Assembly: GCF_017488845.2 (NCBI RefSeq)
Contig: NZ_CP083373.1
Coordinates: 62,001 to 126,000 of the forward strand
Reading direction: 5' to 3'
Source of the DNA: Ensifer canadensis
GTDB taxonomy: Bacteria > Pseudomonadota > Alphaproteobacteria > Rhizobiales > Rhizobiaceae
DNA: 64,000 bases
The stretch's first letter is position 1. Every line of letters starts with the position of its first letter. The position numbers and the translations under genes are program-made. Under the pieces are notes generated by a model. It did no database searches and was not told the DNA's origin. It saw only the letters and a list, made by a program, of their open reading frames with translations. Shown in pieces: positions 14,989 through 63,250 of this stretch.

Positions 14989-15013
14989 GGAACATTCTTA
15001 AGCGACTGCCGTT
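14989..15013 (+). promoter_or_regulatory. EcfG-type promoter, perfect (GGAAC-N16-CGTT)
   Basis: GGAAC at 14989-14993 and CGTT at 15010-15013 lie about 30 bases before the first gene of the molybdenum hydroxylase operon. This matches the general stress response consensus of alphaproteobacteria (GGAAC-N16/17-CGTT, or GGAAC-N18/19-TT as defined for Sinorhizobium RpoE2). Confidence 0.75.
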
Positions 15014-15043
15014 TGGCCCAGAGCAGCAGTGAAAGGGTTTCCC

Positions 15044-15565
15044 GTGATCACACGCTCGTCGATGCACGCACCAAAGTGCGCGGTATCATTCATGGTCAAC
15101 GGCCAAACAACAAACGTCGAAATCGCCCCATGGATTACGCTGCTGGATCTGCTGCGCGGTCCGCTCGAGCTTACGGGCACTAAGAAGGGCTGCGATCATG
15201 GACAATGCGGCGCATGCACGGTCTTGATTGATGGTGAACGCATAAATTGCTGCCTTAAGCTCGCCGTATCGCTGGATGGAGCTGATATAAGGACGATCGA
15301 AGGCTTCGGCACTCCGGATGCTTTGCACCCGATGCAACAGGCTTTTCTTGATCACGATGCGTTTCAATGCGGCTACTGCACGCCGGGTCAAATTTGTTCC
15401 GCGATAAGCCTCGTCAATGAAGGCCGAGCGTATTCACGCGCCGAGATCCGTGAACTGATGAGCGGTAATCTCTGCCGGTGCGGCGCCTATACCAACATCA
15501 TCGACGCCATCGAAACGTTCTTGCAGTCGAATGGTCGGCATAAAACGGACGGATCCGGACGATGA
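15044..15565 (+). CDS. Molybdenum hydroxylase, [2Fe-2S] subunit
   Basis: This small subunit of an xanthine dehydrogenase-family enzyme (PaoA/CoxS-like) passes electrons from the molybdenum site to FAD. The plant-type cluster is bound by CDHGQCGACTVLIDGERINC and the second cluster by CGYCTPGQ and CRCG. GTG 15,044 with AAAGGG six bases upstream is the likely start; ATG 15,062 is the alternative. No twin-arginine signal is visible, unlike periplasmic E. coli PaoA, so a cytoplasmic enzyme is inferred. The stop overlaps the next gene by four bases. Confidence 0.88.
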   Translation: MITRSSMHAPKCAVSFMVNGQTTNVEIAPWITLLDLLRGPLELTGTKKGCDHGQCGACTVLIDGERINCCLKLAVSLDGADIRTIEGFGTPDALHPMQQAFLDHDAFQCGYCTPGQICSAISLVNEGRAYSRAEIRELMSGNLCRCGAYTNIIDAIETFLQSNGRHKTDGSGR

Positions 15566-16584
15566 AGCCGTTTTCCTACACCCGGCCCGAATCCGTGGAG
15601 AATGCGATACGCGCGCTTTCAGCCAATCCGCGCGCTTTCGTCCTCGCGGGCGGGACCAATCTCGTTGACTTGATGAAATACGATGTTGTGCATCCAGAAG
15701 CGATCATCGACATCAACCGCCTGCCGTTGAAAGACATCGAAGAGTTGCCCGATGGCGGGCTGAGGATCGGCGCGCTGGTCAGCAATTCGGCGCTCGCCCA
15801 TGATCGACGAGTGATGAATCGCTATCCCCTACTCACAAGCGCCATTCTGGCTGGTGCATCACCACAATTGCGCAACGCGGCTACGACCGGTGGTAATCTT
15901 TTGCAACGGACCCGTTGCTACTACTTCTACGATCCTGCCACGCCTTGCAATAAGCGCCGTCCCGGCTCGGGCTGCTCTGCGCGCGGCGGCTTTAATCGAA
16001 ATCACGCTATCCTTGGTGCGAGCGAAAGCTGCATCGCAGTTCATCCCTCGGATATGTGCGTTGGCCTGGCCGCCCTGGGAGCGACAGTCGAGGTTATAGG
16101 ACCGAAAGGCCAACGTTGTATTGCGCTGGCCGACTTCCACCGGCTTCCCGGCCAGGAGCCAGACCGGGACAACTCATTGGAACCTGGCGAAATCGTCGTC
16201 GCGATCCGACTCGAGCCTAACCACTTCGTCGCGCACAACAGCTATTTGAAGCTGCGTGACCGCCTCTCCTATGCCTTTGCGCTCGTCTCCGTTGCCGCAG
16301 CAATTGATCTATCCGACGGACGCATCGTTGATGTGAGGCTGGCCCTCGGGGGGGTGGCGCACAAACCTTGGCGAGACCCTCTGGTTGAGGCGGAGTTCGC
16401 TGGGGAAATGGCGGAAGATGCAACGTTCCGCCGTCTTGCCGACAGGCTGTTGACCGGCGCCAAAGGATACGGTGACAACGATTTCAAAATAGTGTTGGCG
16501 AAGCGTGCCATTGCGCGTGCACTGACCGAGGCGGCGACGCGTCCGTCCCAATCTCAGGGGAATGGGCCGCGACAGACACGATAG
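15562..16584 (+). CDS. Molybdenum hydroxylase, FAD subunit with extra iron-sulfur motif
   Basis: A 340-residue medium subunit with FAD-binding motifs VLAGGTNLVDLMK and ATTGGNLLQRTRC. It contains the cysteine-rich insert C-YYFYDPATP-C-NKRRPGSG-C, which in PaoB-type subunits binds an additional [4Fe-4S] cluster. This insert places the enzyme with PaoABC-type aldehyde oxidoreductases rather than with classical xanthine dehydrogenase. It overlaps the [2Fe-2S] gene and is followed after 14 bases by the catalytic subunit. Confidence 0.88.
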   Translation: MKPFSYTRPESVENAIRALSANPRAFVLAGGTNLVDLMKYDVVHPEAIIDINRLPLKDIEELPDGGLRIGALVSNSALAHDRRVMNRYPLLTSAILAGASPQLRNAATTGGNLLQRTRCYYFYDPATPCNKRRPGSGCSARGGFNRNHAILGASESCIAVHPSDMCVGLAALGATVEVIGPKGQRCIALADFHRLPGQEPDRDNSLEPGEIVVAIRLEPNHFVAHNSYLKLRDRLSYAFALVSVAAAIDLSDGRIVDVRLALGGVAHKPWRDPLVEAEFAGEMAEDATFRRLADRLLTGAKGYGDNDFKIVLAKRAIARALTEAATRPSQSQGNGPRQTR

Positions 16585-16598
16585 TAAAGGGCTTTTAC

Positions 16599-18875
16599 AT
16601 GCTACGCGAAAACAAAGCGGTCGGCGCGCCACATTCACGCGTGGATGGCCCGTTAAAGGTAACCGGTCAGGCGCGGTATGCCGCGGAATATTTTGACACA
16701 GGCTTGCTGTTTGGATGCGTGGTGTCCGCCAATATTGCAACGGGTAAGATTGCCTCGATCGACATAGACCATGCGGCCTGCATGCCCGGCGTCGTGAAGG
16801 TCTTCACGCACGAAAACCGCCCGGCGGTCGCTTACCGAAATAGCAAGTGGAAGGATCAGGTCGCTCTGCCCGGTCATCCCTTCCGCCCGCTAGAAAATGA
16901 CCGCATACTTTTCGACGGTCAGCCCGTGGCACTTGTGGTTGCCGACAGCTACGAGGCGGCACGAGATGCAGCGAGCTGTGTGCGGGTACACTATCTGCCC
17001 AACCGTCCGCAAACTGATCTTGAGCGCAATCTCGACGAAAGCTACGTGCCGCCGGTGCCCCGCTCTGAGCAATCTATGCCGCCGCCGCCTCGCGGCGATG
17101 CGCACGCTGCCTTCGCAGCCGCGCCATACAAGATTTCCGCCGAGTACCGGATGGATGGTGAACATCACAATCCGATGGAACTGTTCGCCACGACAGTGAT
17201 ACGAAATGGCAACGGCGATTTGACCGTGTATGACAAAACCCAGGGCTCGCAGAACTCCCACGAGTACATTTGCAATGTATTCGGGTTAGCGTCCGAAAAA
17301 TTAACGGTGAAGAACAGTTTCGTAGGAGGTGCTTTCGGGCAGGGATTGCGGCCGAAGTACCAACTCTTTTTGGCTGTGATGGCGAGCCTTGATCTGAAAC
17401 GATCGATCAAGGTCGAGATGAGCCGCCGCGAGATGTTTTACCTGACTTGGCGGCCCTCTAGTTTCCAACAGGTCTCCCTTGCAGCCGATGGAAATGGAAA
17501 CCTGATATCGGTCATGCACCATGCCGTCCATTCGACGTCCCGTCATGAAGATTACCAGGAAAACGTCGCTAATTGGTCCGGCCTCGCCTACCATTGCGAA
17601 AACGTCAAGATTACGTATGAAATCGTCAAGCTCGACGTTTCTACTCCAGGCGATATGCGCGCGCCCGGGGCGGCAACAGGTATAACGGCCCTTGAGGTGG
17701 CAATTGACGAACTCGCTTTCGCCACAGGAACTGACCCATTGGATTTCCGCATCCGCAATTTCGCCCATCGGGACCAGAACCAAGACAAGGAAATCACCTC
17801 CAAGGCGTTGATGGCTTGTTACCATGAAGGCGCTTCACGCTTCGGATGGTCAGGGCGTTCGGCAGAACCGCGCTCGATGCGCGAGGGAAATGACCTTGTG
17901 GGTTGGGGAATGGCAACGGGCTTATGGGAAGCTAAAATGTCGCCAGCTGAAGCCAAAGTGCGGGTTTCTTCTGATGGCAAGGTCTACGTCTCGGCTGCCG
18001 CTTCCGATATCGGGACCGGCACCTATACGATCCTCGGCCAGATTGCCGCTGATTGCTTCGATGTTCCAATTGACAACGTCACCGTTCAGATCGGGGACTC
18101 TTCTCTTCCTAAGACGGCCGTCGAAGGCGGATCCTACACAGCTGCATCATCTGGTACTGCCGTCCAGGCAGCATCAAAGCGTGTCATTGAAACTCTCCTC
18201 AAGCATGCGCATGTCATGTCTGGCACGCCGCTAAAACACGCCGCAGCCAAGGAAGTCGAAATTGCCGAGGGTCGCCTCGTTCTCAAGACCAATCACCAGC
18301 TCGGTCTGGCTTTGTCCGACATCATGAGCTTTGTCGGCGTCTCGGCCATCGAAGAACTTGGAGTAGCCGGGCCAGACAAGAAACTCGCCAAGACATTTGC
18401 TGCCTACACCCATTCAGCCGTGTTTGCCGAGGTCAAGGTGGATGCTGATCTCGGCGTTGTTCGCGTCACGCGAGTTGTCAGCGCCATTGCCGCGGGCCGC
18501 ATCCTTAATCCCAAGACCGCTCGAAGCCAGATTCTGGGCGGCATTGTGATGGGAATTGGCATGGCGTTGCATGAAAAGGGGATGATCGACCACCGCATCG
18601 GCCGGATCGTCAACCATAACTTGGCCGAGTATCACGTGCCCACAAATGCCGATATCGACGGGCTTGAGGTGATTTTTGTCGAGGAGGATGACAACAAGGT
18701 GAGCCCCATCGGAGCAAAAGGACTGGGCGAGATCGGCATTATCGGTGTTGCCGCTGCCGTTTCAAATGCGATATCTCACGCAACAGGGACTCGTTTCCGC
18801 GACTTTCCCATTACTATCGACAAGTTACTAATGAGCGGCACGTCGAGCGATAACGGGCCTCGGCATCACCTCTGA
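16599..18875 (+). CDS. Molybdenum hydroxylase, molybdopterin catalytic subunit
   Basis: The 758-residue large subunit carries the molybdopterin-binding domains of the xanthine dehydrogenase family. GSQNSHEYICNVFGL, FVGGAFGQGLRPKYQ and GGSYTAASSGTAVQAA are recognisable, as is the C-terminal SPIGAKGLGEIGIIG with the catalytic glutamate. With the two upstream genes it forms a complete three-subunit enzyme, most like PaoABC aldehyde oxidoreductase, which removes aromatic and other aldehydes. No dedicated XdhC/PaoD chaperone follows. The stress-type promoter of the operon suggests a role in aldehyde detoxification. Confidence 0.9.
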   Translation: MLRENKAVGAPHSRVDGPLKVTGQARYAAEYFDTGLLFGCVVSANIATGKIASIDIDHAACMPGVVKVFTHENRPAVAYRNSKWKDQVALPGHPFRPLENDRILFDGQPVALVVADSYEAARDAASCVRVHYLPNRPQTDLERNLDESYVPPVPRSEQSMPPPPRGDAHAAFAAAPYKISAEYRMDGEHHNPMELFATTVIRNGNGDLTVYDKTQGSQNSHEYICNVFGLASEKLTVKNSFVGGAFGQGLRPKYQLFLAVMASLDLKRSIKVEMSRREMFYLTWRPSSFQQVSLAADGNGNLISVMHHAVHSTSRHEDYQENVANWSGLAYHCENVKITYEIVKLDVSTPGDMRAPGAATGITALEVAIDELAFATGTDPLDFRIRNFAHRDQNQDKEITSKALMACYHEGASRFGWSGRSAEPRSMREGNDLVGWGMATGLWEAKMSPAEAKVRVSSDGKVYVSAAASDIGTGTYTILGQIAADCFDVPIDNVTVQIGDSSLPKTAVEGGSYTAASSGTAVQAASKRVIETLLKHAHVMSGTPLKHAAAKEVEIAEGRLVLKTNHQLGLALSDIMSFVGVSAIEELGVAGPDKKLAKTFAAYTHSAVFAEVKVDADLGVVRVTRVVSAIAAGRILNPKTARSQILGGIVMGIGMALHEKGMIDHRIGRIVNHNLAEYHVPTNADIDGLEVIFVEEDDNKVSPIGAKGLGEIGIIGVAAAVSNAISHATGTRFRDFPITIDKLLMSGTSSDNGPRHHL

Positions 18876-18881
18876 TGGAAC

Positions 18882-20010: not shown

Positions 20011-20035
20011 AACGCGGGTTCCGCGTTGAGGTTCC
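20011..20035 (-). promoter_or_regulatory. EcfG-type promoter, perfect (GGAAC-N16-CGTT)
   Basis: Reading leftward, GGAAC is at 20035-20031 and CGTT at 20014-20011, about 30 bases before the ROK gene start at 19,979. Confidence 0.75.
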
Positions 20036-21334: not shown

Positions 21335-21360
21335 GGAACGAACACGATTACTCGTACGTT
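21335..21360 (+). promoter_or_regulatory. EcfG-type promoter, perfect (GGAAC-N17-CGTT)
   Basis: GGAAC 21335-21339 and CGTT 21357-21360, about 28 bases before the start of the sigma region-2-like gene. Confidence 0.78.
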
Positions 21361-21387
21361 GTGTGTGAGCAATGATCGAGGATGGTC

Positions 21388-21666
21388 ATGACCGAAGGCA
21401 CCAAAAAGGAGTTCGACGTGATTGGATTGCTTCCGTCGCTGAGGCAGTTCGCCAGTACACTCGAGATGGATCCGCAACGGTCAAAGCTTCTGGTCGAGCG
21501 TACGTTACGTCGAGCCGTCTCCGAACTTAAATCCTATCGCATCGGCATGGACCTTCGTCGGTGGCTCTTCAGATTAATGCTTGAGACCGCCGAACTACGG
21601 GCTTCTCATGGGAAGATAGCTTTACCAGCCCGGCGCGATCGATCACGACAAAGTCTTATGTCCTGA
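21388..21666 (+). CDS. Stand-alone sigma region-2-like protein (92 aa)
   Basis: Residues 13-68 (GLLPSLRQFASTL ... LLVERTLRRAV ... DLRRWLFRLMLETA) align without gaps over 56 positions to region 2 of the ECF sigma factor encoded at 35,785. Shared positions include L-P-x-L-R, LV-x-x-TL, G-x-x-L-x-x-WL and the final Met. There is no region 4, so it cannot act as a normal sigma factor. PhyR uses a sigma-like domain to bind the anti-sigma factor NepR, and a similar decoy role is my inference. The gene is driven by a perfect stress-type promoter. Confidence 0.7.
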   Translation: MTEGTKKEFDVIGLLPSLRQFASTLEMDPQRSKLLVERTLRRAVSELKSYRIGMDLRRWLFRLMLETAELRASHGKIALPARRDRSRQSLMS

Positions 21667-23257: not shown

Positions 23258-23564
23258 CTCTGGCTCCATTCGTTGCTCCACTCTGCACTCGAACTCACCT
23301 GGCCTGCTTGGTTCCCAGGTGCGATAGAGACCGTCAGGAAACTGATCTCGCATGTGGAGCTCATGGACGCTCATGCTCGACTTCACAACGGCCCGTGTCC
23401 GAGCGTGTTCCGTCCATATCGAGTTTGAGGTTCACCCACATGGTCCGAGACAGGTTGGCGTTGTTTCGCAATACTGAGATATCTCATGGCAATATGGCGG
23501 CTCACGACCGCCATCGGGCGGAGCCGGCATTGCTGGCTATTTTCGCGATGCCTCTTCTTCGCCT

Positions 23565-25265: not shown

Positions 25266-25590
25266 ACCGCCAAACCCTGACGAGCAGCCTCCGATGCCCG
25301 CGCCGACCTGGATTCCCAGGCCGATCGAAGAACCGGAACCGGATGAATTGCCGGACGAGAAGCGGAATCCCAACCCAGATGAGGTGAGTGACCCCCCAAA
25401 TATCTATCCGGCCATGGCAGCGGCTGTAAAGCCACGTCCTGAGGGAACCAAACGTAAATTCCCGAGTTTTGGAGGTCGCAGACGACTGTGGAGGAGCAAT
25501 CAAGCGAAAGCGCATTATTCATGGTGTTGTCATTCTGGTCCTTCCAACCTGGCAAACCGCGCTCTGCAAAAAGTGAAACGTCGGCAGTAA
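25252..25590 (+). CDS. Proline-rich small hypothetical protein (112 aa)
   Basis: ATG 25,252 follows AAGGAGCGATC and opens MSTPKPPNPDEQPPMPAPTW followed by a Pro, Glu and Asp-rich stretch (EEPEPDELPDEKRNPNPDE), a composition seen in short rhizobial stress-induced proteins. The last ~50 residues are basic and of different character, so the true stop might have been lost. It overlaps the udgX frame by 14 bases. Function unknown, probably disordered. Confidence 0.5.
   Translation: MSTPKPPNPDEQPPMPAPTWIPRPIEEPEPDELPDEKRNPNPDEVSDPPNIYPAMAAAVKPRPEGTKRKFPSFGGRRRLWRSNQAKAHYSWCCHSGPSNLANRALQKVKRRQ
25444..25468 (+). promoter_or_regulatory. Possible EcfG-type promoter (GGAAC-N16-AGTT) inside the preceding gene
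   Basis: GGAAC 25444-25448 and AGTT 25465-25468. The next start downstream on this strand is the glycine-rich stress protein at 25,728, giving a leader of about 250 bases, longer than for the other sites. Confidence 0.4.
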
Positions 25591-25727: not shown

Positions 25728-26327
25728 ATGCGGACTGTAAGTGGACTTTTTGATAATCATGATGACGCGCGGAACGCCGTTGCGCAGTTGGAAGCGGTGG
25801 GCGTGCCTTCATCCGACATTAGTCTCATCGCCAACAACGCTGATAACCGCTACTCCGATAGCGATACGAATGCTGCCGAGGGCGCCGGTGCCGGTGCGAG
25901 TCTTGGTGCCGCAGGAGGCGGAGCGGTTGGGCTTCTAACGGGCCTAGGATTGATGGCAATACCAGGTGTTGGCCCTGTGGTGGCGGCGGGTTGGTTGGCA
26001 TCAACCGCAGCAGGAGCTGCCGCGGGCGCGGTGGCCGGAGGAGCTGTCGGAGGCATGATCGGAGCGATGACCAATTCCGGGGTAAACGAAAGCGACGCTC
26101 ACGTTTATGCCGAGGGTGTGCGCCGTGGTGGTAGCGTTGTCACAGCGCGCGTTGATGAAGGGCTGGTAGCGGACGCTGAGGCAATACTGCGCGCCAATTC
26201 GGTCGATCCCGTTGGAAGGCGGCAGGCATATGCAGAAGCCGGTTGGCAGCGGTTTGATGACCGAGCCGCGCCTTACAGCGCAAGTGAAATCGAAGAAGAA
26301 CGCCGGCGCTACACCCGCATCCCTTGA
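25728..26327 (+). CDS. Glycine-zipper general stress protein (YflT/heat-induced type)
   Basis: The 199-residue protein starts MRTVSGLFDNHDDARNAVAQ, the N-terminal domain of general stress proteins of the 17M/YflT type. A long Gly/Ala-rich membrane-interacting region follows (GAGAGASLGAAGGGAVGLLT through AVAGGAVGGMIGAM, about residues 50-115). It ends with a second small domain (ADAHVYAEGVRRGG-like) that holds VVTARVDEG. AAAAAGGAG lies just upstream of ATG 25,728. Such proteins rise strongly under osmotic and starvation stress; their biochemical role is unknown. Confidence 0.8.
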   Translation: MRTVSGLFDNHDDARNAVAQLEAVGVPSSDISLIANNADNRYSDSDTNAAEGAGAGASLGAAGGGAVGLLTGLGLMAIPGVGPVVAAGWLASTAAGAAAGAVAGGAVGGMIGAMTNSGVNESDAHVYAEGVRRGGSVVTARVDEGLVADAEAILRANSVDPVGRRQAYAEAGWQRFDDRAAPYSASEIEEERRRYTRIP

Positions 26328-26963: not shown

Positions 26964-26988
26964 AACATCGCAATCGCGGTCCTGTTCC
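26964..26988 (-). promoter_or_regulatory. EcfG-type promoter (GGAAC-N16-TGTT)
   Basis: GGAAC 26988-26984 and TGTT 26967-26964, about 55 bases before the DUF982 gene. Confidence 0.6.
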
Positions 26989-27078: not shown

Positions 27079-27103
27079 GGAACGTTGTTGGCGGTTCCCA
27101 GTT
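27079..27103 (+). promoter_or_regulatory. EcfG-type promoter (GGAAC-N16-AGTT)
   Basis: GGAAC 27079-27083 and AGTT 27100-27103, about 40 bases before the small exported protein at 27,145. The paralogous gene at 54,333 has the same hexamer pair and spacing. Confidence 0.65.
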
Positions 27104-29419: not shown

Positions 29420-29712
29420 CAACGCCTTTCCACTGTGCGGACCTCAAAAAACTGGCCAGTTTGCGACGAACTTCTCGAGCCATCAGGTGAAACGCGTGTG
29501 AGGGAAGATCGTTGCCCGACACCGTAGCAACCTTCGTCCTTCGGTTGAGATTGTATCGCACCAAGTTAGGCCGCCACTTGAACGCAGCAAACTCCCTCGC
29601 TGATGCTATCCGTGAGTTGACGGGCAAATCCGCGATCGACGCTACTCATCGAACTCGGTGTCTGCCCGGGTTGTTCCGGTTTGCCGTGGAAGACTTGCCT
29701 GACGGTTGAGGG

Positions 29713-30498: not shown

Positions 30499-31140
30499 CT
30501 AATGGGCCACCTGGGAAGCTGCCGACATCAATTCCTCGGGATTGGGCGCGCTGAATGTTTGGAGGCCACCCTTCAGAACTTCAGTGAAGCTCCAGCGTAT
30601 GATGCCCTCCCGATCAATCAGGAACTGACCGACAAGTTGCCCCTGGTCGGAAGTCATCATCTGCTGATCGGCTGCGGTAATTTCATATCCTTCGCTCTTA
30701 TTGATAAACTCGTCCATTGCCATCACGTCCATTGGCTCAGGCAACTCGCCCGGGAGGTCGATCCGTATCGCCATGACCGTGTCCATTCCGACTTCACGCA
30801 AGCCGAAAGCATGGTGCGAAGCCCGCACCGGGTCGGACGCTGCAAGAACTTCGGGAATCGGATGGTAACGGAAATAGAGTCGGGCGCGTTCGACCGGGGT
30901 GTTTACGACCGCTAGAGTTTGAACGCCCTTTTCACGCAGGGCCGGGTTAAGTTGTGCCATCGCTGCGACATGGCGCCGGCAGAACGGACAGTGCAAGCCT
31001 CGAAACAAACCAATCAATAATGGATTACGGCCTCGAAAATCTTCGAGCGCGATCTTGCCGTCGCCCGAGATCGCATCGAGCACAACATTCGGCGCCCGGT
31101 CACCCGGCTGCAGCGGGCCGTCGACGCTGCTCATGGGCAT
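30499..31140 (-). CDS. Peroxiredoxin-like (AhpC/TSA) protein
   Basis: The 213-residue protein has a thioredoxin fold beginning GDRAPNVVLDAISGDGKIAL, with IGLFRGLHCPFCRRHVAAMA carrying a CxxC pair at the position of the peroxidatic cysteine. LIDREGIIRWSF follows near the C-terminus. It belongs to the alkyl-hydroperoxide-reductase-like group of peroxiredoxins. GAGGAGG six bases upstream fixes ATG 31,140. No stress-type promoter was found, although removal of peroxides would suit the island. Confidence 0.82.
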   Translation of the reverse strand: MPMSSVDGPLQPGDRAPNVVLDAISGDGKIALEDFRGRNPLLIGLFRGLHCPFCRRHVAAMAQLNPALREKGVQTLAVVNTPVERARLYFRYHPIPEVLAASDPVRASHHAFGLREVGMDTVMAIRIDLPGELPEPMDVMAMDEFINKSEGYEITAADQQMMTSDQGQLVGQFLIDREGIIRWSFTEVLKGGLQTFSAPNPEELMSAASQVAH

Positions 31141-33592: not shown

Positions 33593-33629
33593 TGGCAGGG
33601 GGGCTTCCGTTTGTTCATGGTGACGGTGG

Positions 33630-33655
33630 AACGAAGAAGCGAGTTCGAATGTTCC
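33630..33655 (-). promoter_or_regulatory. EcfG-type promoter, perfect (GGAAC-N17-CGTT), for otsA
   Basis: GGAAC 33655-33651 and CGTT 33633-33630, about 38 bases before the otsA start. Its -35 is 22 bases from that of the divergent site at 33,678. Confidence 0.82.
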
Positions 33656-42469: not shown

Positions 42470-42499
42470 GCGGTGTTTCCTCCTCAAGGCGCCCGAAGC

Positions 42500-47127: not shown

Positions 47128-47153
47128 AAACCACCTCAATGACCGAAGGTTCC
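47128..47153 (-). promoter_or_regulatory. EcfG-like site (GGAAC-N19-TT)
   Basis: GGAAC 47153-47149 and TT 47129-47128, about 55 bases before the kinase gene. It fits the N18/19-TT form, but the bases before TT deviate from CG. Confidence 0.4.
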
Positions 47154-47596: not shown

Positions 47597-47989
47597 GTGT
47601 TGAACACGTCCGTGCCTTGGAGTTCGAGTTTCGCTGGCAAGCGTGTCCTTGTCGTTGAGGACGAGTTCCTGCTTGCCGACGAAACTCGACGCCAACTCGA
47701 ACAATTGGGGGCGATCGTGGTGGGTCCGACTCCGCAAGTCACCGCAGCGCTGGTGCTCATCGACAGGCAGATGATCGACGTCGCAATCCTTGATATCCTG
47801 CTCGATGGTGTCGAAGTTTTTCCGGTCGCCGAGCGTCTCAGGGAACGCGGTATTCCTTTTGTCTTTGCGAGCGCGTTCGGATCGTCCGCCATACCAGAGC
47901 GTTTCAAAGGGTATGTTCTCTGCGACAAGCCAATAGAGCTCGAGAATATCGCTCGCGGGCTCTTTGAGACAACCAATCGAGACCACTGA
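47597..47989 (+). CDS. Single-domain response regulator
   Basis: A 130-residue receiver: KRVLVVEDEFLLADETRRQL, phosphoacceptor VAILDILLDG (Asp66), T-loop IPFVFASAFG and the lysine in YVLCDKPIE. The loop is a variant of the FAT GUY signature. It has no output domain, so it presumably competes for or relays phosphate among HWE kinases. AAGGAG precedes a GTG start at 47,597 (a TTG follows immediately). It is divergent from the PAS-HWE kinase. Confidence 0.83.
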   Translation: MLNTSVPWSSSFAGKRVLVVEDEFLLADETRRQLEQLGAIVVGPTPQVTAALVLIDRQMIDVAILDILLDGVEVFPVAERLRERGIPFVFASAFGSSAIPERFKGYVLCDKPIELENIARGLFETTNRDH

Positions 47990-50724: not shown

Positions 50725-50749
50725 GGAACCTGTCGACTTTGCTACCGTT
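50725..50749 (+). promoter_or_regulatory. EcfG-type promoter, perfect (GGAAC-N16-CGTT)
   Basis: GGAAC 50725-50729 and CGTT 50746-50749, 33 bases before the YbhN-like gene. Confidence 0.8.
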
Positions 50750-54210: not shown

Positions 54211-54235
54211 AACGCCGCAAGGGCCAGGAGGTTCC
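54211..54235 (-). promoter_or_regulatory. EcfG-type promoter, perfect (GGAAC-N16-CGTT)
   Basis: GGAAC 54235-54231 and CGTT 54214-54211, about 57 bases before the DUF982 gene. Its -35 is 24 bases from that of the divergent site at 54,260. Confidence 0.8.
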
Positions 54236-54259: not shown

Positions 54260-54284
54260 GGAACACATAGAGCGCTATTGAGTT
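54260..54284 (+). promoter_or_regulatory. EcfG-type promoter (GGAAC-N16-AGTT)
   Basis: GGAAC 54260-54264 and AGTT 54281-54284, about 48 bases before the small exported protein gene. Confidence 0.68.
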
Positions 54285-54796: not shown

Positions 54797-57046
54797 ATGA
54801 GTTTGGTTGAGACGACAGGATCGAATGATGCGGGGTTGGCATTCACACGATCTGAAAAAATCCAGCTGGCGCTAAAACTCGTTTTACCTGTCGTAGCCGG
54901 TGCTTTCCTGATGGCTGCGATCTACGCATCTGTGTACTGGTCGGCGGGCGGCGCCGATGATGTCGCAGCCGCGCGCCAGACCCGCCTGTTCCAGTTGGTG
55001 ATCTCAAAACTGAGGATGGAGCTTGCTCACGAACAGGAAAGCGTGACGGTCTGGGACGACGCCATTGATGCCGTAACCGCCCAAACGAGAGACCAGGAAT
55101 GGCTCGACATGAACCTCGGGCGGTGGATGCACACGTACTTCGGACACGATGGTGCTTTCGTACTGTCACCGGCCGGGCGCCCCGTTTATGCTTTCTGGCG
55201 CGCAGAACGGCGCGGGCCAGAGGCCTTCGACGAAGTCGCCGATGCCGCCATGCCCATGATCAGAAACTTAAAATTGAGGCTCGCCGCAGGCGACGAGAGC
55301 GGCATCACGCAACAAGTCCTTTCCATCGGGGAGAGCGACTTTGTGGTGATTGATGCAAGGCCGGCGGTGATCAGTGTCAAACCCATCGTTTCTGATACGG
55401 GCAATCGCACGCAGGCGCCAGATGAGATCTACCTTCATGTCGCGGTGCGCTACCTGGATCGTCGCTATCTAACGACGCTTGGTGAAGAATATGCTTTCGA
55501 TGATCTACAGTTCCACAATGGAATTATTGGTGATCAATCGAGGGCGACGGCACCGTTAACCACACGTTCGGGTCAGGTGGCCGGTTACTTTTCTTGGTCA
55601 CCTTTCTCGCCCGGAGCCGACTTGATTCGAGAGACCACTCCCATCCTAGCAGCGACCACAGCGTTGATTTTGGCTTTGACAGTCTCAATGGGTGCCTCAA
55701 TCTGGAACCGGTCGCGGCGCTTGAAAACGAGCCAGGCACAATTGAACCATCTTGCCTTTCACGACGGATTGACAGGGTTGGCCAACCGGCGAACGTTTCA
55801 CCGACGCCTTGCTGAAAGGCTCAACGGCGCGAGCAAGCCGCGTGAACTTGCAGTTCTGTACATGGATCTGGACCGCTTCAAGCAGGTCAACGATATGCTT
55901 GGACACCCAGTCGGCGACGCATTGATCATAGCGGTGGCTAAACGATTGAATGAGGCCGCCGGACTTGCCGAAACAGTTGCGCGCATTGGTGGAGATGAAT
56001 TCACTGCAATCATAGCCCATACAAACCGGCAGGATGTCGAAAAACAATGTCAGCGGCTGATCGACGCGATCCAGGAACCCTTCGAGGTCAAGGGGCACCC
56101 CATTCGAATTGGGCTCAGCATCGGCGTGTCCATGTTGGGAAGTGCGCGTGGCACTCAACACAAATCGGCGGACGAAATGATGCGCGAGGCCGATATCGCC
56201 CTCTATCACGCCAAGGGCGCGGGACGGAACTGCTATGCCATCTTTGGCGCGCACATGGACGAACTGATCAAAATGCGCCGCGAGCTCGAGCGAGATCTAC
56301 GCGCTGCTCTCGAAGCAAAGGATCAGTTGGAAATCCATTACCAGCCGGTCTATTCCGCACTGGGCCGCCAGATTACGGGCGTCGAAGCCCTGTTAAGGTG
56401 GAGGCATCCTCTCAAAGGTTTGATACCGCCGGATATGTTCATCGGTCTTGCAGAGGAAATTGGGATTATTGAAAAGGTTGGCTCCCTTGTCCTTAAGGAG
56501 GCCTGCACTGCCGCCTTGCCATGGGAGGGCCTCGGACTTTCCGTCAACGCGTCGGCGCTTGAGATGCGGAACCCGAACTATGCCCGCAATGTGCTGGCCA
56601 TTCTTGATGAACTGAAATTCAAGCCGGAGAGACTGGAAATCGAAATCACCGAGACAGCGCTTGTCGATGAAGACGGGCAGTGCGAGAAGAACATACGCGC
56701 ACTTAGAGCGGCGGGCGTTCGCTTCGCTCTTGATGATTTTGGCACGGGTTTTTCTTCATTCGGGCGCCTACAGCGTCTGGAAGTCGACCGTATAAAGATT
56801 GACCGTTCTTTCGTGAATGGTTTCGGAACACCGGGGGGAAACGAGGAAATTGTTCAGGCAATCATAGGTCTGGCGCACGCCAAGGGGCTGAAGACGACCG
56901 CCGAAGGGATCGAAACAATCGAGCAACAAGAGGCGCTGTGCCGCTTGGGATGCGACGACCTACAGGGTTTTCTGTTATCTCGCCCCGTGCCATCGCAGGT
57001 CATTGCTAAGATTCTGCAGCAGCGCGGATCGACCATTGAGACGTAG
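54797..57046 (+). CDS. CHASE4-GGDEF-EAL cyclic-di-GMP enzyme
   Basis: The 749-residue protein has a membrane helix (about residues 33-53), a periplasmic CHASE4-type sensor (LAHEQESVTVWDDAIDAVTA, MHTYFGHDGAFVLSPAG), and a second helix (about 290-310). A GGDEF domain with intact VARIGGDEFTAII and an EAL domain with VEALLRWRHP, EIEITETAL and FALDDFGTGFSSF follow. Both catalytic signatures look intact, so it could make or break c-di-GMP depending on the signal. No stress-type promoter; it stands alone. Confidence 0.93.
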   Translation: MSLVETTGSNDAGLAFTRSEKIQLALKLVLPVVAGAFLMAAIYASVYWSAGGADDVAAARQTRLFQLVISKLRMELAHEQESVTVWDDAIDAVTAQTRDQEWLDMNLGRWMHTYFGHDGAFVLSPAGRPVYAFWRAERRGPEAFDEVADAAMPMIRNLKLRLAAGDESGITQQVLSIGESDFVVIDARPAVISVKPIVSDTGNRTQAPDEIYLHVAVRYLDRRYLTTLGEEYAFDDLQFHNGIIGDQSRATAPLTTRSGQVAGYFSWSPFSPGADLIRETTPILAATTALILALTVSMGASIWNRSRRLKTSQAQLNHLAFHDGLTGLANRRTFHRRLAERLNGASKPRELAVLYMDLDRFKQVNDMLGHPVGDALIIAVAKRLNEAAGLAETVARIGGDEFTAIIAHTNRQDVEKQCQRLIDAIQEPFEVKGHPIRIGLSIGVSMLGSARGTQHKSADEMMREADIALYHAKGAGRNCYAIFGAHMDELIKMRRELERDLRAALEAKDQLEIHYQPVYSALGRQITGVEALLRWRHPLKGLIPPDMFIGLAEEIGIIEKVGSLVLKEACTAALPWEGLGLSVNASALEMRNPNYARNVLAILDELKFKPERLEIEITETALVDEDGQCEKNIRALRAAGVRFALDDFGTGFSSFGRLQRLEVDRIKIDRSFVNGFGTPGGNEEIVQAIIGLAHAKGLKTTAEGIETIEQQEALCRLGCDDLQGFLLSRPVPSQVIAKILQQRGSTIET

Positions 57047-57760: not shown

Positions 57761-57785
57761 AACTCAATTTGTGTATGATCGTTCC
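57761..57785 (-). promoter_or_regulatory. EcfG-type promoter (GGAAC-N16-AGTT)
   Basis: GGAAC 57785-57781 and AGTT 57764-57761, before the isochorismatase-family gene. Confidence 0.62.
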
Positions 57786-58160
57786 CTGAGAATGTGCGGG
57801 GTAGCGAGCCGGCCTTGCACCAAAATCGCTCAAGCCTAGTGCCTTTAATTTTTCACGTAGTGACGCCCACCCTGCAAACAGCGGATTACGTCGAGGGGCG
57901 ACCGCGAGCAGGCTGAAACCGCCTCGCAATTGGTCTCTCGCGAACTATGGTCAGCTAAGTTTTGGGAAAGGGAACATTGAACATCGAACGCCGTTGTTCG
58001 GAGATCGCTGGTGTAAAAGCGAGAAAGGCCAGCTCGTCGACCGAACCAACGCGGCAGCGGTCCAACCTCACGGTGTTTGGCTGAGCTTTCGAATCTGGAG
58101 GGGAGGAATGACGGATGCATGAGCCAAGCCTTGCGCCCTCGGTGAGACTGGAGTGCGTCG
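57786..58160. other. Intergenic stretch with one promoter
   Basis: Only the site at 57,971-57,995 was recognised. A minus-strand frame at 57,711-57,929 spans the upstream promoter and is not accepted as a gene. Confidence 0.35.
57971..57995 (+). promoter_or_regulatory. EcfG-type promoter, perfect (GGAAC-N16-CGTT)
   Basis: GGAAC 57971-57975 and CGTT 57992-57995. The nearest gene is the GFA-family protein at 58,161, leaving a leader of about 160 bases in which I see no other gene. Confidence 0.7.
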
Positions 58161-58715: not shown

Positions 58716-59210
58716 TTAAGCTGCCTTTGCCTTCATATTTGCCGCACTAAGCGCTAACTGGGTTAATTTCTTGTCCGTAGCACCTTCCTCCTGAAGGGTG
58801 GCGTCGAGCAAGGCGACTGCGTCCTTAAGACCCAACTGTTGGGCCCAGGTTTTCAGCGTGCCGTATCGGGCAATTTCGTAATGCTCAACTGCCTGGGCAG
58901 CAGAGATGAGGCCAGCGTCGATCGCCGGTGAGCCTTTGAACTCTTCGATGATCTCCTCTCCCTCAGCAATCAAACCCTGGACCGCCTCACAGGTCTTGCC
59001 CTGGGCACGTTTCCCGATGAGTTCAAAGACTTGCTGGAGCCGTTCCACATGCCCCTCCGTCTCGTCTTTATGCTTCTCGAACGCGGCCTTGGTGTCACTT
59101 GACTGGGCGGCACGGGCCATCTTCGGCAGCGCCTTCAAGATCTGACGTTCTGCGTAGTAGATATCCTTCAGAGTCTCGTGAAAAAGCTTCTCCAGATTTG
59201 CTTCAGCCAT
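58716..59210 (-). CDS. Ferritin-like DUF892 (YciF-type) protein
   Basis: The 164-residue four-helix protein starts MAEANLEKLFHETLKDIYYA and contains AERQILKALPKMARAAQSSD, KDETEGHVERLQQVFELIGK and AVEHYEIARYGTLKTWA, with the Glu/His ligands of a di-metal site. YciF-type proteins are among the most strongly stress-induced in enterobacteria and alphaproteobacteria. AAGGAGG seven bases before ATG 59,210 fixes the start; the frame upstream runs through the promoter. Confidence 0.9.
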   Translation of the reverse strand: MAEANLEKLFHETLKDIYYAERQILKALPKMARAAQSSDTKAAFEKHKDETEGHVERLQQVFELIGKRAQGKTCEAVQGLIAEGEEIIEEFKGSPAIDAGLISAAQAVEHYEIARYGTLKTWAQQLGLKDAVALLDATLQEEGATDKKLTQLALSAANMKAKAA

Positions 59211-59237: not shown

Positions 59238-59262
59238 AACCTGACTTGCAGCAAAAAGTTCC
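59238..59262 (-). promoter_or_regulatory. EcfG-type promoter (GGAAC-N16-GGTT)
   Basis: GGAAC 59262-59258 and GGTT 59241-59238, 28 bases before the ferritin-like gene. Confidence 0.68.
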
Positions 59263-59321: not shown

Positions 59322-59346
59322 GGAACCTATCTCTCGCGATGAAGTT
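59322..59346 (+). promoter_or_regulatory. EcfG-type promoter (GGAAC-N16-AGTT)
   Basis: GGAAC 59322-59326 and AGTT 59343-59346, about 74 bases before the DUF6894-like gene. Confidence 0.6.
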
Positions 59347-59750: not shown

Positions 59751-61688
59751 TCAGCCGATGAGATGCTCCTGCCAGTCCGCAACATCCTTTGCTGACGGAA
59801 CCCGTTGGGCCCCTCTCGCTTCGGGCGTTAGTAACAGCGCTGTGTTGCCAGATAGCACCCAGCGTCGATCAAGATCGGCGGGCCGTAGCCCGCCTCCTCC
59901 ATATCGAACATCTTCGCTAGACCAGGCTATTGTCCACTGGTGAAACTCCGGAGGAGCGAATAAAGGATCGGCCAGGCTGGCAATCACCAGATCACGACCG
60001 AGATTGATGAGCAGAAGGCGATCATCCTTGCCTTGCGCGGTGAGGTATCGCAATAAGAGGCAGCGATCGCTCAAAACACTTCCGTCCACCGCTGCCGGCG
60101 GCTCCCCTTCGCCAACGACCGGTATGCACCGCCGTAAGGCGATCAGGTCTGTGTGCAGTGCGAGCATGTCTCCATTGCGCTCGGCATCTTCCCAAGCAAG
60201 CTTGCAACGCTCGAATGTTGATCGATCACACGGATCGGGCATGTTCCGTCTGATTTGCTGGTCCCTGAAACTCGCGAACTGCCACAGGAAAGCAAGTCTC
60301 CCATCTCGTACGCTAGAGCTGTTGTCCTTTGCAGCGTCGCTGAAGTAGAGGAAAGGTGTGCTCGCTGAAAACTCTTGCCCTTGGAACAACATCGGCGTTT
60401 GGGGCCCGAGAATAAGAAGCGCCGTCATTGCCCTGAGGCGTGCGCCGCTCGTCAACTGATGGATGCGTTTTCCGCTCGCCGAGTTCGCGATTTGATCATG
60501 ATTGTCGAGGAAGTGCACGAAATTCGCCGGAAGCAGATCGCGCGCTGGCTTGCCCCGGTCCTTGTTCTGCCAGTTGTATCTTTGGCCCTGGAAAAGGTAA
60601 CCATATTTCGCTGCCGACACGAATTCCTGCGGATGGCCCCGGTAGTCATGGAGATAGGCCTCGCGCCGTCCGGTAAGCGCAACCTTGGCCGAATGATGGA
60701 AATCATCATTCCACACGGCGTCCATGCCAAGCCCCCCTCGTTCCGTTGCTCGGACCAAGTTCGCGTCCTGAGGTTCGTTTTCGGCGAGCAGGTACAGCTT
60801 CTTCACGCCCGCTGCCCGTCGACAGGCGTTCGCGATCTCTCCCACAATGTGCCTCTCGCTTTTGTCTTCAAGGGCCTGAGTGGCATCAATCCTCAGCCCA
60901 TCAAAGTGAAACTCCTCGATCCAGTAGACAGCATTGCAGATGAAATAGGTCCTGACTCCATCACAACCGTCACCGTCCAGATTTAGCGATCTGCCCCACT
61001 CGTTGCGTTCGCCCTTAAAATACGATGCAGCGAATCGATCAAATCGATCCCCGGGCCCGAAGTGATTGTAGACGACATCAAGAATAACACCGATGCCGAC
61101 AGCGTGCGCGGCGTCCACGAACGACCTCAGATCGTCCGGCGTGCCGTAAAGTCGCGTAGGAGCGAAGAGTAAAACGCCATCATAGCCCCAGCCGAAGCTG
61201 CCCAGGAATTCGTTCACTGGCATCATCTCGATCACTGTTACACCGAGATCGCGCAGATGTTGCAGCCGTTGTCGCGCTGCTGTCCAGGTCCCTTCTGGCG
61301 TAAACGTGCCGACGTGTAGCTCGTAGACCACTTGGCCTTGCGGGGGCACTCCTGTCCAGGCCTGGTCGCGCCAGATGAAATCTGACGGTTCGATGACCTG
61401 CGAGGGTCCCGTCGGTCCGAGTGGCTGGAACCTGGAAGCAGGGTCGGCTTCCAGGACCCCGTCATTATCGAGGTCCAAATGATAGTTTGTCCCGATGCCC
61501 AAATCAGCTACGAGGCCAGAGAAATATCCATTCCCTTCAGCGTGGAGTGGGTAATGTCCATTATCTGTGACGACCGAAATGCGCTTGCGCGCCGGCGCCC
61601 ACACTCGAAAGGATACACCTCCCCGCATCGGTTCGGCCCCAATGGGAAAACGCCGGCTAATCAGAGCCTCGTGCGCACTCGGACTCAT
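59751..61688 (-). CDS. treZ: Maltooligosyl trehalose trehalohydrolase
   Basis: TreZ releases trehalose from the product of TreY. The 645-residue enzyme has an N-terminal domain (GGVSFRVWAPARKRISVVTD), GH13 motifs VVYELHVGTFTPEGTW, GVILDVVYNHFGPG, FHFDGLRIDATQAL, YLLAENEPQD and VHFLDNHDQIANS, and MLFQGQEFSASTPFLYFSD. GGAGG seven bases upstream fixes ATG 61,688. The otsBA genes (31,334) give a second trehalose pathway in the same island. Confidence 0.93.
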   Translation of the reverse strand: MSPSAHEALISRRFPIGAEPMRGGVSFRVWAPARKRISVVTDNGHYPLHAEGNGYFSGLVADLGIGTNYHLDLDNDGVLEADPASRFQPLGPTGPSQVIEPSDFIWRDQAWTGVPPQGQVVYELHVGTFTPEGTWTAARQRLQHLRDLGVTVIEMMPVNEFLGSFGWGYDGVLLFAPTRLYGTPDDLRSFVDAAHAVGIGVILDVVYNHFGPGDRFDRFAASYFKGERNEWGRSLNLDGDGCDGVRTYFICNAVYWIEEFHFDGLRIDATQALEDKSERHIVGEIANACRRAAGVKKLYLLAENEPQDANLVRATERGGLGMDAVWNDDFHHSAKVALTGRREAYLHDYRGHPQEFVSAAKYGYLFQGQRYNWQNKDRGKPARDLLPANFVHFLDNHDQIANSASGKRIHQLTSGARLRAMTALLILGPQTPMLFQGQEFSASTPFLYFSDAAKDNSSSVRDGRLAFLWQFASFRDQQIRRNMPDPCDRSTFERCKLAWEDAERNGDMLALHTDLIALRRCIPVVGEGEPPAAVDGSVLSDRCLLLRYLTAQGKDDRLLLINLGRDLVIASLADPLFAPPEFHQWTIAWSSEDVRYGGGGLRPADLDRRWVLSGNTALLLTPEARGAQRVPSAKDVADWQEHLIG

Positions 61689-61738
61689 CTGACATCCTCC
61701 ATTAGCCGGCATCACTCGAAGGCAGAGTGATGGAGCCT

Positions 61739-61763
61739 AACCGTGAACTCTGAGGCAAGTTCC
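61739..61763 (-). promoter_or_regulatory. EcfG-type promoter (GGAAC-N16-GGTT) for treZ
   Basis: GGAAC 61763-61759 and GGTT 61742-61739, about 51 bases before treZ. Confidence 0.68.
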
Positions 61764-61944
61764 AAGGCCGCTAGCTGGCACCGAACTTCCTGCGGCATCC
61801 GATCTGAGTGTTTTCTGCCTGGAAGGGTGCTTGGCATAGACGCTGACCAGCATAATCTCGCCTAAGCTCGAGGCTCGCCAACCTCATAGCGGCGCATGCT
61901 CTTGCGGATCCGCGGCAACGAGACGGCGCTGGATAATCCAGGCT

Positions 61945-62049
61945 CTAATGCACTTGTCGGTCGGGCGTCCAGGCCGGCCCAAACCACAGGAGCCAGAGAC
62001 CCGCAAGAATGGGAAGGGACCCAACGGTTAACAATATTACGGCCACCAT
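61945..62049 (-). CDS. Single-helix membrane peptide (34 aa)
   Basis: ATG 62,049 follows GGAGG with an eight-base gap. The product begins MVAVILLTVGSLPILAGLWL, continues LWFGPAW and ends TPDRQVH: one membrane helix with a short polar tail. A stress-type promoter lies upstream. It is too short for most annotation pipelines. Function unknown. Confidence 0.6.
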   Translation of the reverse strand: MVAVILLTVGSLPILAGLWLLWFGPAWTPDRQVH

Positions 62050-62126
62050 GATTCAAACCTCCGTCGGGACATGGTGTTGTGGTATCGGCCCGTCGCATCA
62101 CATGCACTTGCCGTCAGTCAAGACCC

Positions 62127-62151
62127 AACAAACCGGCACTGTTTTCGTTCC
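62127..62151 (-). promoter_or_regulatory. EcfG-type promoter (GGAAC-N16-TGTT)
   Basis: GGAAC 62151-62147 and TGTT 62130-62127, about 78 bases before the 34-residue membrane peptide gene. Confidence 0.6.
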
Positions 62152-62276
62152 ACTGCTGCAGCACGCTGCGTGATGGGCCTGCGCTGCCACCTGCCGCATC
62201 GTCGAGGCAAGTTCGGTGGTCTTGCCTGCTCCCGTCGTAGTGCGATCAAGAGAAGAAGCGACTGGTCGCGCGGCTG

Positions 62277-62301
62277 GGAACCTTTGTCAGGATCAGCAGT
62301 T
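62277..62301 (+). promoter_or_regulatory. EcfG-type promoter (GGAAC-N16-AGTT)
   Basis: GGAAC 62277-62281 and AGTT 62298-62301. It would transcribe toward 62,501. A 38-codon frame beginning at 62,312 (MNVIPAKGKSGEQTNV) lies immediately after it but lacks a ribosome site. Confidence 0.5.
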
Positions 62302-62500
62302 AGTTCCTGGTATGAACGTCATCCCTGCAAAAGGGAAGTCGGGTGAACAAACGAATGTCGTTAAGACAAAGAGAAAATTGGAATGGAAAGGCTCCAACTA
62401 CCGGGCCGGAGAGGTGAAAGCGCCATGACGACCGGCGTGGAAGGAAAAACAATCCAGGCACAGGCGTACCCCTCCCCTTGAATTGAACAGGTGAGAAGTC

Positions 62501-62731
62501 GTGAAATCTGCCGATAGAGATGTAGTAGCGCTTTCCGAACAGCTTCGAGCGATGACGGATGATGAACTGTTTACCCGTATGGGCGAACTGGAAAAGGAAA
62601 GTGAGCGACAATCGGTACCAGACCAAGCCGTCTTGGCAACGATCGCGCTTGTGGAAACCGAAATCGAAAGACGTTTTCCAGGTCAACTCATGGCTCCTTA
62701 CCGTGAATGGCGGCGCCGCGAGATCTTATAG
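62501..62731 (+). CDS. Small helical hypothetical protein (76 aa)
   Basis: Starts MKSADRDVVALSEQLRAMTD and continues LFTRMGELEKESERQSVPDQ, a charged helical protein ending in an Arg-rich tail (APYREWRRREIL). AGGTGAGAAGTC upstream is a modest ribosome site. I do not recognise the family. The stress-type site at 62,277 may serve it with a ~195-base leader. Confidence 0.5.
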   Translation: MKSADRDVVALSEQLRAMTDDELFTRMGELEKESERQSVPDQAVLATIALVETEIERRFPGQLMAPYREWRRREIL

Positions 62732-63225
62732 CCCCCGGCGTCACGCATTGCGAGGCGCGCTCTAGCCGTGCAAGCTCCTCAAGGATGGCCGCATCACAGA
62801 AGCCGCTGATCTTCCGGCGTGACGTCTTGCGCAGCGCAGCGCCGCCTGCATTTCGGAACAGAACTGGAGATCCCGGCAAAGTACGGCGCACCCTATGGCA
62901 CCGACTGCACCTCGATGCGCTATATCGTAAGGCGTTTTCAGCGATCGCGGCGTCATCGAATGATCGCGATTGCGTTCCTCCGGGCCAGATCGGCAGGCGC
63001 CTACGATGATCTGCAACAAGTATCTGAACGAGAGCTACCTGGGCACTAGATCCGCAACCAGGCGACCTTGGTGGCTGAACCCTTTGCCGAGCGGCCCCAG
63101 CATGTCGTGAGCCGGGACCTAACCGGGTGACTTTGAAGCCGAATCTGCGGCAGCACTCATCTACGCCTCGGAGCGCCACGGTTGATCTTCGGAGACATCG
63201 CCAAACAAAAACCGGCTGAAGACTC
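62732..63225. other. Stretch without an intact gene
   Basis: Plus-strand pieces such as EIPAKYGAPYGTDCTSMRYI look partly protein-like but are short and in changing frames. I see no complete gene and no RNA feature. Confidence 0.35.
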
Positions 63226-63250
63226 GGAACACAATTGGGCTCAAAGGGTT
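63226..63250 (+). promoter_or_regulatory. EcfG-type promoter (GGAAC-N16-GGTT)
   Basis: GGAAC 63226-63230 and GGTT 63247-63250, 44 bases before the DUF4142 gene. Confidence 0.68.

Follow-up and report, generated by a model that had tools for sequence, protein, structure and literature searches.

The window analysed here is a 64,000-nucleotide stretch of the Ensifer canadensis genome (assembly GCF_017488845.2, contig NZ_CP083373.1), corresponding to positions 62001–126000 of a 782,207-base replicon designated C4 within an 8.09-Mb, six-contig genome whose chromosome (C1) comprises 4,051,102 bases. C4, a separate 782-kb contig with a ParA/RepA-like gene, is by inference a plasmid. The window was found to lie in a ~183-kb zone of C4 crowded with promoter-like sites, GGAAC followed by 16 nucleotides (N16) and NGTT, of the kind associated with the general stress sigma factor EcfG, and the zone surrounds a gene for a second sigma factor of the ECF15 family, of the plasmid-borne type represented by Sinorhizobium meliloti RpoE5 and Rhizobium etli EcfG2. 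Comparison of sequences established the clustering of these predicted sites, their promoter-like position and orientation, their recurrence before orthologous genes with a free base at the head of the −10 box, the linkage in relatives between such clusters and the sigma gene, and a constant CATT-type site upstream of that gene. It is proposed, with a probability of roughly 0.5, that the zone is a plasmid stress-promoter territory working as a two-tier cascade, in which EcfG would switch on the plasmid sigma factor. Coordinates given without a replicon name are those of the window.

Clustering and promoter-like character of the sites

The strict motif was defined as GGAAC-N16/17-NGTT, and the same pattern at other spacings (outside N15–N18) served as control. 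The window contained 41 strict sites (32 N16 and nine N17), of which 39 were located from 14,989 onward. Control spacings yielded a mean of 2.4 NGTT matches each with a maximum of 8, so that the N16 peak is strong (Poisson P ~1e-24 for its excess in the window) and the N17 peak weak, and a chance total of ~5 is expected for the two spacings, near the four estimated in an earlier sequence-only reading of the same DNA. That reading had counted 29 strict sites from 14,989; the cluster it described is real, but the recount there is 39. Its nine perfect GGAAC-N16/17-CGTT sites were all recovered at their positions, but the list was incomplete, the window holding 11 with the addition of 1539 (−) and 23411 (−). 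The first 14.6 kb, in which no site had been noted before genes, is not the border of the cluster: two strict sites are present there and dense sites resume leftward of the window.

The sites were placed as promoters would be. In C4:20–200 kb, 84 of the 89 N16 sites were intergenic according to a first gene caller and 82 of 89 according to a second; the first marked 58% of this stretch as coding, and both under-call. Across C4:16–200 kb, 35/91 N16 sites lay 20–80 nt before the start of a same-strand gene, as against 0/91 when their orientation was flipped and 16/141 for the pooled control spacings. Among 250 intergenic occurrences of GGAAC in the zone, GTT followed a 17-nt spacer in 84, the next commonest trinucleotide at that position occurring nine times. 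The base before GTT in those 84 was G in 28, C in 25, A in 17 and T in 14, and relative to control the enrichment of A, C, G and T was 10- to 15-fold each. The two positions directly after GGAAC mildly favored A/C/T and then A/T. The −35 element, spacing and GTT of EcfG-type promoters were found in the zone, with C at the head of the −10 box not above the other bases. By position and orientation, the zone sites are candidate promoters. For 27 of the 41 strict sites of the window, a gene was called on the same strand no more than 300 nt away, and three fell within called genes, so the claim that nearly all are directly upstream of genes was too strong. The gene caller used for the window was home-made and under-calls; for example, it missed the open reading frame (ORF) at 15029–15565, and sites 14989 and 21335 face ORFs absent from its calls (15029 and 21382) but recognized by Pfam. 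The pairs 33628/33655 and 42939/42966 are each mirror images of one GGAAC..GTTCC palindrome.

Scanning of C4 in 20-kb bins showed 8–14 N16 sites in eight of nine bins across 20–200 kb, the 60–80 kb bin having three, and ~1 per bin outside this range, with control spacings at 0.1–1.5 per bin; C4:460–480 kb was also elevated (five N16 sites). The dense zone spans C4:16.8–199.4 kb. The island size of ~48 kb deduced earlier was therefore an underestimate: it took in about a quarter of the zone, and what had been taken for its left edge is an internal gap. A filtered motif, GGAACHW-N14-NGTT, was searched over the whole genome with reversed-pattern controls. This gave 87 sites with A, G or T before GTT (hereafter non-C) and 65 with C, against 44 and 26 in the controls. 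The zone, 2.3% of the genome, held 67 of the 152 matches (48 non-C, 19 C), a 34-fold enrichment over the rest that is somewhat inflated by drawing the borders at the outermost sites. Sampled stretches of C2, C3, C5 and C6, as well as C1 stretches unselected for sites, were near control density, and the clustering noted in the window held up against other accessory regions, where equal density was not seen. Higher N16 counts outside the zone were obtained at C1:395–415 kb (6), C2:1630–1650 kb (5) and C2:1290–1310 kb (3), regions picked for their known sites.

The plasmid-borne sigma factor and its surroundings in relatives

The sigma gene of the window (35785–36300, +) encodes a protein of 171 amino acids with matches to Pfam Sigma70_r2, r4_2 and PhyR_sigma2, i.e., the ECF-type sigma2 and sigma4 regions with PhyR_sigma2 similarity of an ECF15/EcfG-like factor. 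It shared 43% identity with the chromosomal EcfG of the same genome, encoded at C1:2719 kb with PhyR and NepR at its flanks. Another such PhyR/NepR pair is present at C1:401 kb, and NepR was found above cut-off at these two loci only, with none on C4. As it is not beside nepR and phyR, the window factor was classed as a non-canonical EcfG. It showed 74% identity over 159 amino acids to the pSymB-encoded RpoE5 (SMb21484) of S. meliloti, and in NZ_CP019586 the sigma match starts 86 bp after the published rpoE5 promoter. Since the S. meliloti match directly follows this promoter, the factor was assigned to the RpoE5 type. Hence, the label of EcfG-type sites given to the cluster earlier is apt for an EcfG-like promoter peak over stress genes, but not as the sole label, as the zone carries its own RpoE5/EcfG2-type sigma factor. 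The family was present at 66–77% identity in 11 of the 16 genomes of the genus, including this one. Its named close relatives (at least 65% identity) were all Ensifer in the genome collection, and plasmid matches to the gene, among the matches listed, belonged to Ensifer or Sinorhizobium. Many fixed region 2 residues differed between RpoE5-type proteins and EcfG (e.g., S64/A, F74/L, T76/S), and several of the RpoE5-type residues were common to most second ECF15 proteins of other genera (10 of 12 loci read). The small protein adjoining the sigma gene (36365–36625, −; site TGTT at 36666–36690, −) was considered as a NepR, as suggested by the description of S. meliloti rpoE5, and rejected; a similar protein in a relative (locus L238) is annotated as DUF2934.

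A GGAAC-N16-CATT site is located upstream of the sigma gene (35717–35741, +). This form was found before all 13 Ensifer copies and before S. meliloti rpoE5 (14/14 loci). In other genera, a C-headed box was present within ~500 nt upstream of the second ECF15 gene in eight of the 10 loci read out of 12 (four CATT, four CGTT) and absent from two; locus L248 carried an AGTT site besides CATT. In S. meliloti, according to two publications, transcription of rpoE5 is RpoE2-dependent and its promoter is of the GGAAC-N16-CATT form (PMC6180224; PMC3616915). Going by the shared form of the site and these publications, the window sigma gene would be transcribed by the chromosomal EcfG. The cascade model was drawn from this pattern, because C appears to be kept at promoters that EcfG would read and free at the linked targets.

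Site clusters accompany the sigma gene in relatives. Eight Ensifer sigma loci of 11–20 kb contained 4–16 N16 sites each, compared with 0.3–1.1 for controls. In the rpoE5 region of S. meliloti 1021 (pSymB 1380–1430 kb), 10 N16 sites were found against 0.8 per control spacing; 11 strict N16/N17 sites lie within ~26 kb of rpoE5, all intergenic, seven of them at 24–80 nt before a called gene and including one palindromic pair. Clusters were also present around the second ECF15 sigma gene in four of the five other genera tested (80 kb examined for each): 15 N16 sites in 60 kb (G046, three with C), 13 in 40 kb (G077, none with C), nine in 40 kb (G109, three with C) and 13 in 60 kb (G059, eight with C). 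A second non-C cluster was observed in two Ensifer-group genomes at G001:C3:1238–1322 kb and G003:C4:867–910 kb, on the same contig as the sigma gene and 330–620 kb from it; these two clusters have site sequences in common.

Comparison with known systems showed both likeness and deviation. With the EcfG general stress response (ECF15, e.g., S. meliloti RpoE2), the zone shares the −35 GGAAC, the 16-base spacer, the GTT of the −10 box and target genes such as CsbD, LigD, trehalose, YflT and ferritin-like genes, and the genome possesses a chromosomal phyR-nepR-ecfG locus; the zone differs in that a ~183-kb stretch of a single plasmid brings the targets together, the first −10 base is free, and neither NepR nor a complete PhyR is encoded next to its sigma gene. 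With S. meliloti rpoE5 it shares the sequence identity given above, the upstream GGAAC-N16-CATT and a cluster of NGTT sites, which is small in S. meliloti; one target is known there, whereas ~90 N16 candidate promoters adjoin the sigma gene here. R. etli EcfG2 likewise represents a non-canonical, plasmid-borne ECF15 subgroup, the likeness being by published description and not by sequence; in the work on it, EcfG2 is said to prefer its own promoter, and no motif is reported to have been found (PMC3892343).

A candidate regulator of the plasmid sigma factor was found close to it. The predicted response regulator at 41858–42469 (−) matched Pfam Response_reg and then PhyR_sigma2, with the receiver at residues 15–102 and the sigma2 domain at 147–197 (ORF taken as 41858–42487), although the receiver score of 28.4 bits is below the Pfam cut-off of 30.2. 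Like PhyR, it combines a receiver with a PhyR_sigma2 domain; unlike PhyR, in which the sigma-like domain is N-terminal and the receiver C-terminal, it is receiver-first and without a sigma4-like part, an 'inverted PhyR' (REC-sigma2). D65 and K110 of the receiver were invariant in 30/30 aligned sequences, including that of the window. The search yielded 82 proteins at E ≤0.001, many covering the receiver only, and homologs with the same domain order occurred in Ensifer, Mesorhizobium and matches named Oceaniglobus and Tabrizicola. A full-length copy lies 1.5–8 kb from the sigma gene in nine of 13 non-redundant loci (the window, L045–L049, L051, L125 and L238; not in L050, L052, L126 and L271, L052 holding only 0.8 kb on one side of sigma). 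Structure prediction gave a mean predicted local distance difference test (pLDDT) score of 88 and a predicted template modeling (pTM) score of 0.61 with a weak linker. In a PDB search with the model, the receiver part was matched, including PhyR (5uxv) via its receiver; the C-terminal part alone had no PDB match among the matches listed. REC-sigma2 is a good candidate for a regulator of the plasmid sigma factor. No description of a receiver-first PhyR was found in the open-access literature, as judged mostly from titles and abstract openings.

Which sigma factor reads the sites

In the proposed cascade, stress would act through PhyR and NepR to release the chromosomal EcfG, which in this organism probably favors C as the opening base of the −10 box and would drive the plasmid sigma gene via GGAAC-N16-CATT. 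The plasmid sigma factor would then be the main reader of GGAAC-N16-NGTT before the linked stress genes, presumably indifferent to the first −10 base, while the CGTT subset would be readable by EcfG too, and REC-sigma2 may tune the plasmid factor.

The base at the head of the −10 box carries this argument. In the filtered scan, the chromosome had 13 non-C to 17 C sites as against 48 to 19 in the zone (P 0.012), and the chromosomal EcfG loci of 16 related genomes each showed one N16 site, with C in 16/16. Among 116 ortholog pairs (relatives' regions; the pairs are not independent), the gene of the present genome had a site in 57, and the relative had one too in 39 of these, compared with eight for eight control spacings together; where the gene had no site, the relative had one in 12/59. 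GGAAC and GTT were conserved across diverged spacers, and the base before GTT differed in 24 of the 39 pairs with both sites. The unfiltered NGTT pattern (without HW) gave reversed-pattern controls too noisy for separating genomes. Within the genus, the 11 genomes carrying the sigma gene had 601 non-C sites against 446 in controls and the five non-carriers 142 against 167 (P 4e-4), while C sites numbered 453 against 237 and 166 against 111, respectively (contrast P 0.10). Non-C sites within ~20 kb of the sigma gene accounted for 11/58 in G001, 10/38 in G003 and at least 10/42 in G004. At the level of the family, 10 of 16 genomes with a non-C excess and one of 16 without carried a second sigma gene that is RpoE5-like (at least 148 bits, a threshold fixed after the scores were known; Fisher P 0.002), these 32 having been chosen from 119 non-genus genomes by observed/control ratio with some excess genomes omitted.

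Several observations weigh against the cascade. Genome G038 has an RpoE5-like gene without a cluster (two N16 sites in 80 kb), and in the G059 cluster C predominates (8/13). In 560 kb of chromosome unselected for sites, which includes eight earlier neutral stretches and replaced a partly CGTT-centered sample biased for base preference, intergenic N16 sites numbered one non-C (control 1.7) and two C (control 1.0), and N17 gave four intergenic non-C sites where other spacings averaged 1.7. With so small a C excess and non-C N17 sites present, the contrast between chromosome and zone rests on small numbers. The sigma carriers G002, G004 and G011 showed no genome-wide non-C excess, and the genus contrast is confounded, as carriers and non-carriers differ in plasmid content; six family genomes with an excess (G016, G066, G082, G084, G107 and G132) had no close RpoE5-like gene. 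In the S. meliloti study, overexpression of RpoE5 raised one gene only and that of RpoE2 320, though its authors consider it possible that RpoE5 was not active (PMC6180224). Further, a Sphingopyxis study describes EcfG-dependent promoters with TGTT, GGTT and CATT boxes, and transcription increased when CGTT was put in place of TGTT or CATT (PMC7083833); given such flexibility, a free first base needs no second sigma factor.

Hence, the zone could instead be part of the ordinary EcfG (RpoE2) regulon that happens to form a block on a plasmid, in which EcfG would read all sites, those without C more weakly, and the RpoE5-type factor would be an EcfG-regulated minor bystander. This explanation is a serious one, to which somewhat less than an even chance is given. 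It agrees with the published −10 flexibility (PMC7083833), with a gene content typical of the general stress response, and with the 93 promoter-bearing targets of RpoE2 and the single one of RpoE5 in the S. meliloti data (PMC6180224). It accounts poorly for the different base ratios of chromosome and zone (13:17 vs. 48:19), for the constancy of C at the EcfG locus in 16/16 as opposed to its replacement in 24/39 plasmid-zone ortholog pairs, and for a non-C excess that tracks the RpoE5-like gene in both genus and family.

The sequence-only reading had seen in the cluster a portable stress island assembled gene by gene. Recent mobility would fit the lower guanine-cytosine content of the zone relative to most of the replicon, the insertion sequence (IS) elements and transposases inside it, and a gene content that varies among relatives (77 of 192 called zone genes had a homolog at ≥40% identity in the relatives' regions examined). 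Assembly gene by gene is weakened by a 16-kb block (window 26.6–42.7 kb) in which 14 of 18 called genes occur in the same order in Ensifer locus L045 at 53–80% protein identity, and by the recurrence of sigma gene and sites together across genera. Portability was not shown either: no tRNA gene was found in the 64-kb window, and a Pfam scan of 80 proteins (out of 192 called in C4:15–205 kb, the borders being partly scanned) revealed transposases and no integrase of phage type, though the replicon is of plasmid type and the zone includes a ParA/RepA-like gene. A recently mobile island is accordingly improbable. That the spacing peak is an artefact of composition or repeats and means nothing for regulation, as the pair of identical IS copies and the two palindromes might suggest, is very hard to reconcile with a single sharp spacing, orientation bias, intergenic position and GGAAC/GTT conserved over diverged spacers.

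The two-tier cascade may extend beyond this plasmid. More tentatively, the RpoE5/EcfG2-type paralogues of Rhizobiaceae could be dedicated second-tier sigma factors with their own linked regulon, turned on when EcfG reads a C-headed box (in Ensifer, CATT) not read by the paralogues, which would themselves read NGTT with any first base and be controlled by the inverted PhyR; a plasmid would in this way bring its own stress response, one able to connect to the EcfG of any host. The linkage of sigma gene and cluster may explain why many related bacteria retain an extra EcfG copy, the widespread occurrence of which had 'not satisfactorily been explained' (Jans et al., 2013; PMC3892343). It supplies a list of candidate promoters, including the 11 strict sites near rpoE5 in S. 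meliloti 1021, along with a base-level prediction that EcfG favors C and RpoE5 accepts any first base, and suggests that the genes of a stress regulon, instead of being scattered, can come together with their sigma factor on one plasmid. No description of such a plasmid site cluster was found in the open-access literature, again mostly from titles and the openings of abstracts.

Genes and other features of the window and zone

For carbohydrate metabolism, the zone encodes a trehalose synthase and phosphatase, glycogen enzymes and two alpha-amylase-family proteins. It further encodes redoxin, YflT, CBS, BON, DUF892, CsbD, DUF1236, LigD, a BrkB-family protein, a low-affinity iron permease and, not far from a single-domain receiver, an HWE kinase; small proteins of unknown kind are numerous, and not each of these genes has its own site. 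The annotated relative pCTYH.Ch1_2 of E. adhaerens has a gene content of similar character beside its sigma gene, with Ku, LigD, CsbD, ferritin-like, PRC-barrel and glutathione synthetase genes.

Carbohydrate genes are well represented in the window (sites are N16 unless stated). The trehalose-6-phosphate synthase (GT20, OtsA type; 32216–33481, −, start uncertain) has a CGTT N17 site at 33630–33655 (−), the mirror site being 33628–33653 (+), and is followed by a trehalose phosphatase (OtsB type; 31334–32188, −). A GlgX-type glycogen debranching enzyme (36752–38836, −) is preceded by CGTT at 38896–38920 (−), likewise CGTT in the L045 ortholog, and a glycogen/starch synthase (40109–41566, +) by a TGTT N17 site at 40045–40070 (+), which is GGTT in L045. 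Two alpha-amylase-family proteins are located at 48011–50464 (−) and at 59751–61688 (−; GGTT, 61739–61763, −); we take the former to be TreY-like and the latter TreZ-like.

Other genes with a site include a YflT-domain general stress protein (25728–26327, +; AGTT, 25444–25468, +), a short-chain dehydrogenase (34725–35504, +; TGTT, 34506–34530, +), a DUF892 ferritin-like protein (58716–59210, −; GGTT, 59238–59262, −, the base before GTT in six relatives being T/T/G/T/A/T) and a DUF4142 protein (63295–63822, +; GGTT, 63226–63250, +). A PAS-HWE histidine kinase (46043–47074, −), belonging to the class of kinases that act in the general stress response, has a GGTT site (47129–47153, −) 54 nt upstream, and a single-domain receiver protein is encoded at 47597–47989 (+). 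A redoxin/AhpC-TSA protein (30499–31140, −) and a CHASE4-GGDEF-EAL protein (54797–57046, +) were also found.

Further CGTT sites are located at 14989–15013 (+), 20011–20035 (−), 21335–21360 (+, N17), 23387–23411 (−, absent from the earlier nine), 42794–42819 (+, N17) and 50725–50749 (+), as well as at 54211–54235 (−) and 57971–57995 (+), both with no called gene close downstream. Others carry AGTT at 27079–27103 (+), 29652–29677 (−, N17), 54260–54284 (+), 57761–57785 (−), 59322–59346 (+) and 62277–62301 (+), TGTT at 26964–26988 (−), and GGTT at 43292–43316 (+) and 45495–45519 (−). The remaining strict sites, weaker candidates or mirrors, are 1489 (+), 1539 (−), 18877 (+), 22994 (−), 23854 (−), 23876 (+), 33628 (+), 34383 (−), 42939 (+), 42966 (−), 44604 (−), 44918 (+), 53455 (−) and 62151 (−).

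The site at 14989 ends 15 bases before a three-gene operon of the molybdopterin/2Fe-2S dehydrogenase (xanthine/aldehyde dehydrogenase) type at 15029–18875. Two stand-alone PhyR_sigma2-like proteins, at 21382–21666 (+; 94 amino acids, PhyR_sigma2 E 2.9e-7, four homologs in one search) and C4:167713–167967 (+; 84 amino acids), lie just behind GGAAC-N16/17-CGTT, that of the former being the site at 21335; they are possible decoys or sinks for an anti-sigma factor. In the first 15 kb of the window, which is poor in sites and adjoins a transposase gene, a chemotaxis receptor is encoded along with toxin-antitoxin-like and other genes; at 1726–5539 there are three of the toxin-antitoxin-like kind (HipA, BrnA antitoxin, TacA1-like).

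Two identical transposase genes, presumably of IS21 type, are present in the zone in opposite orientation at C4:60.7–62.2 kb (60667–62178, −) and 180.4–182.0 kb (180441–181952, +), and could allow inversion of ~120 kb including the window. As the ParA/RepA-like gene (C4:191236–192432, −), which we take to be of repABC type, sits inside the site-rich zone, the stress territory may adjoin the replication origin. An identical 25-base site sequence occurs twice on C4, at 160269 (+) and 335485 (−), which suggests a duplicated promoter or gene.

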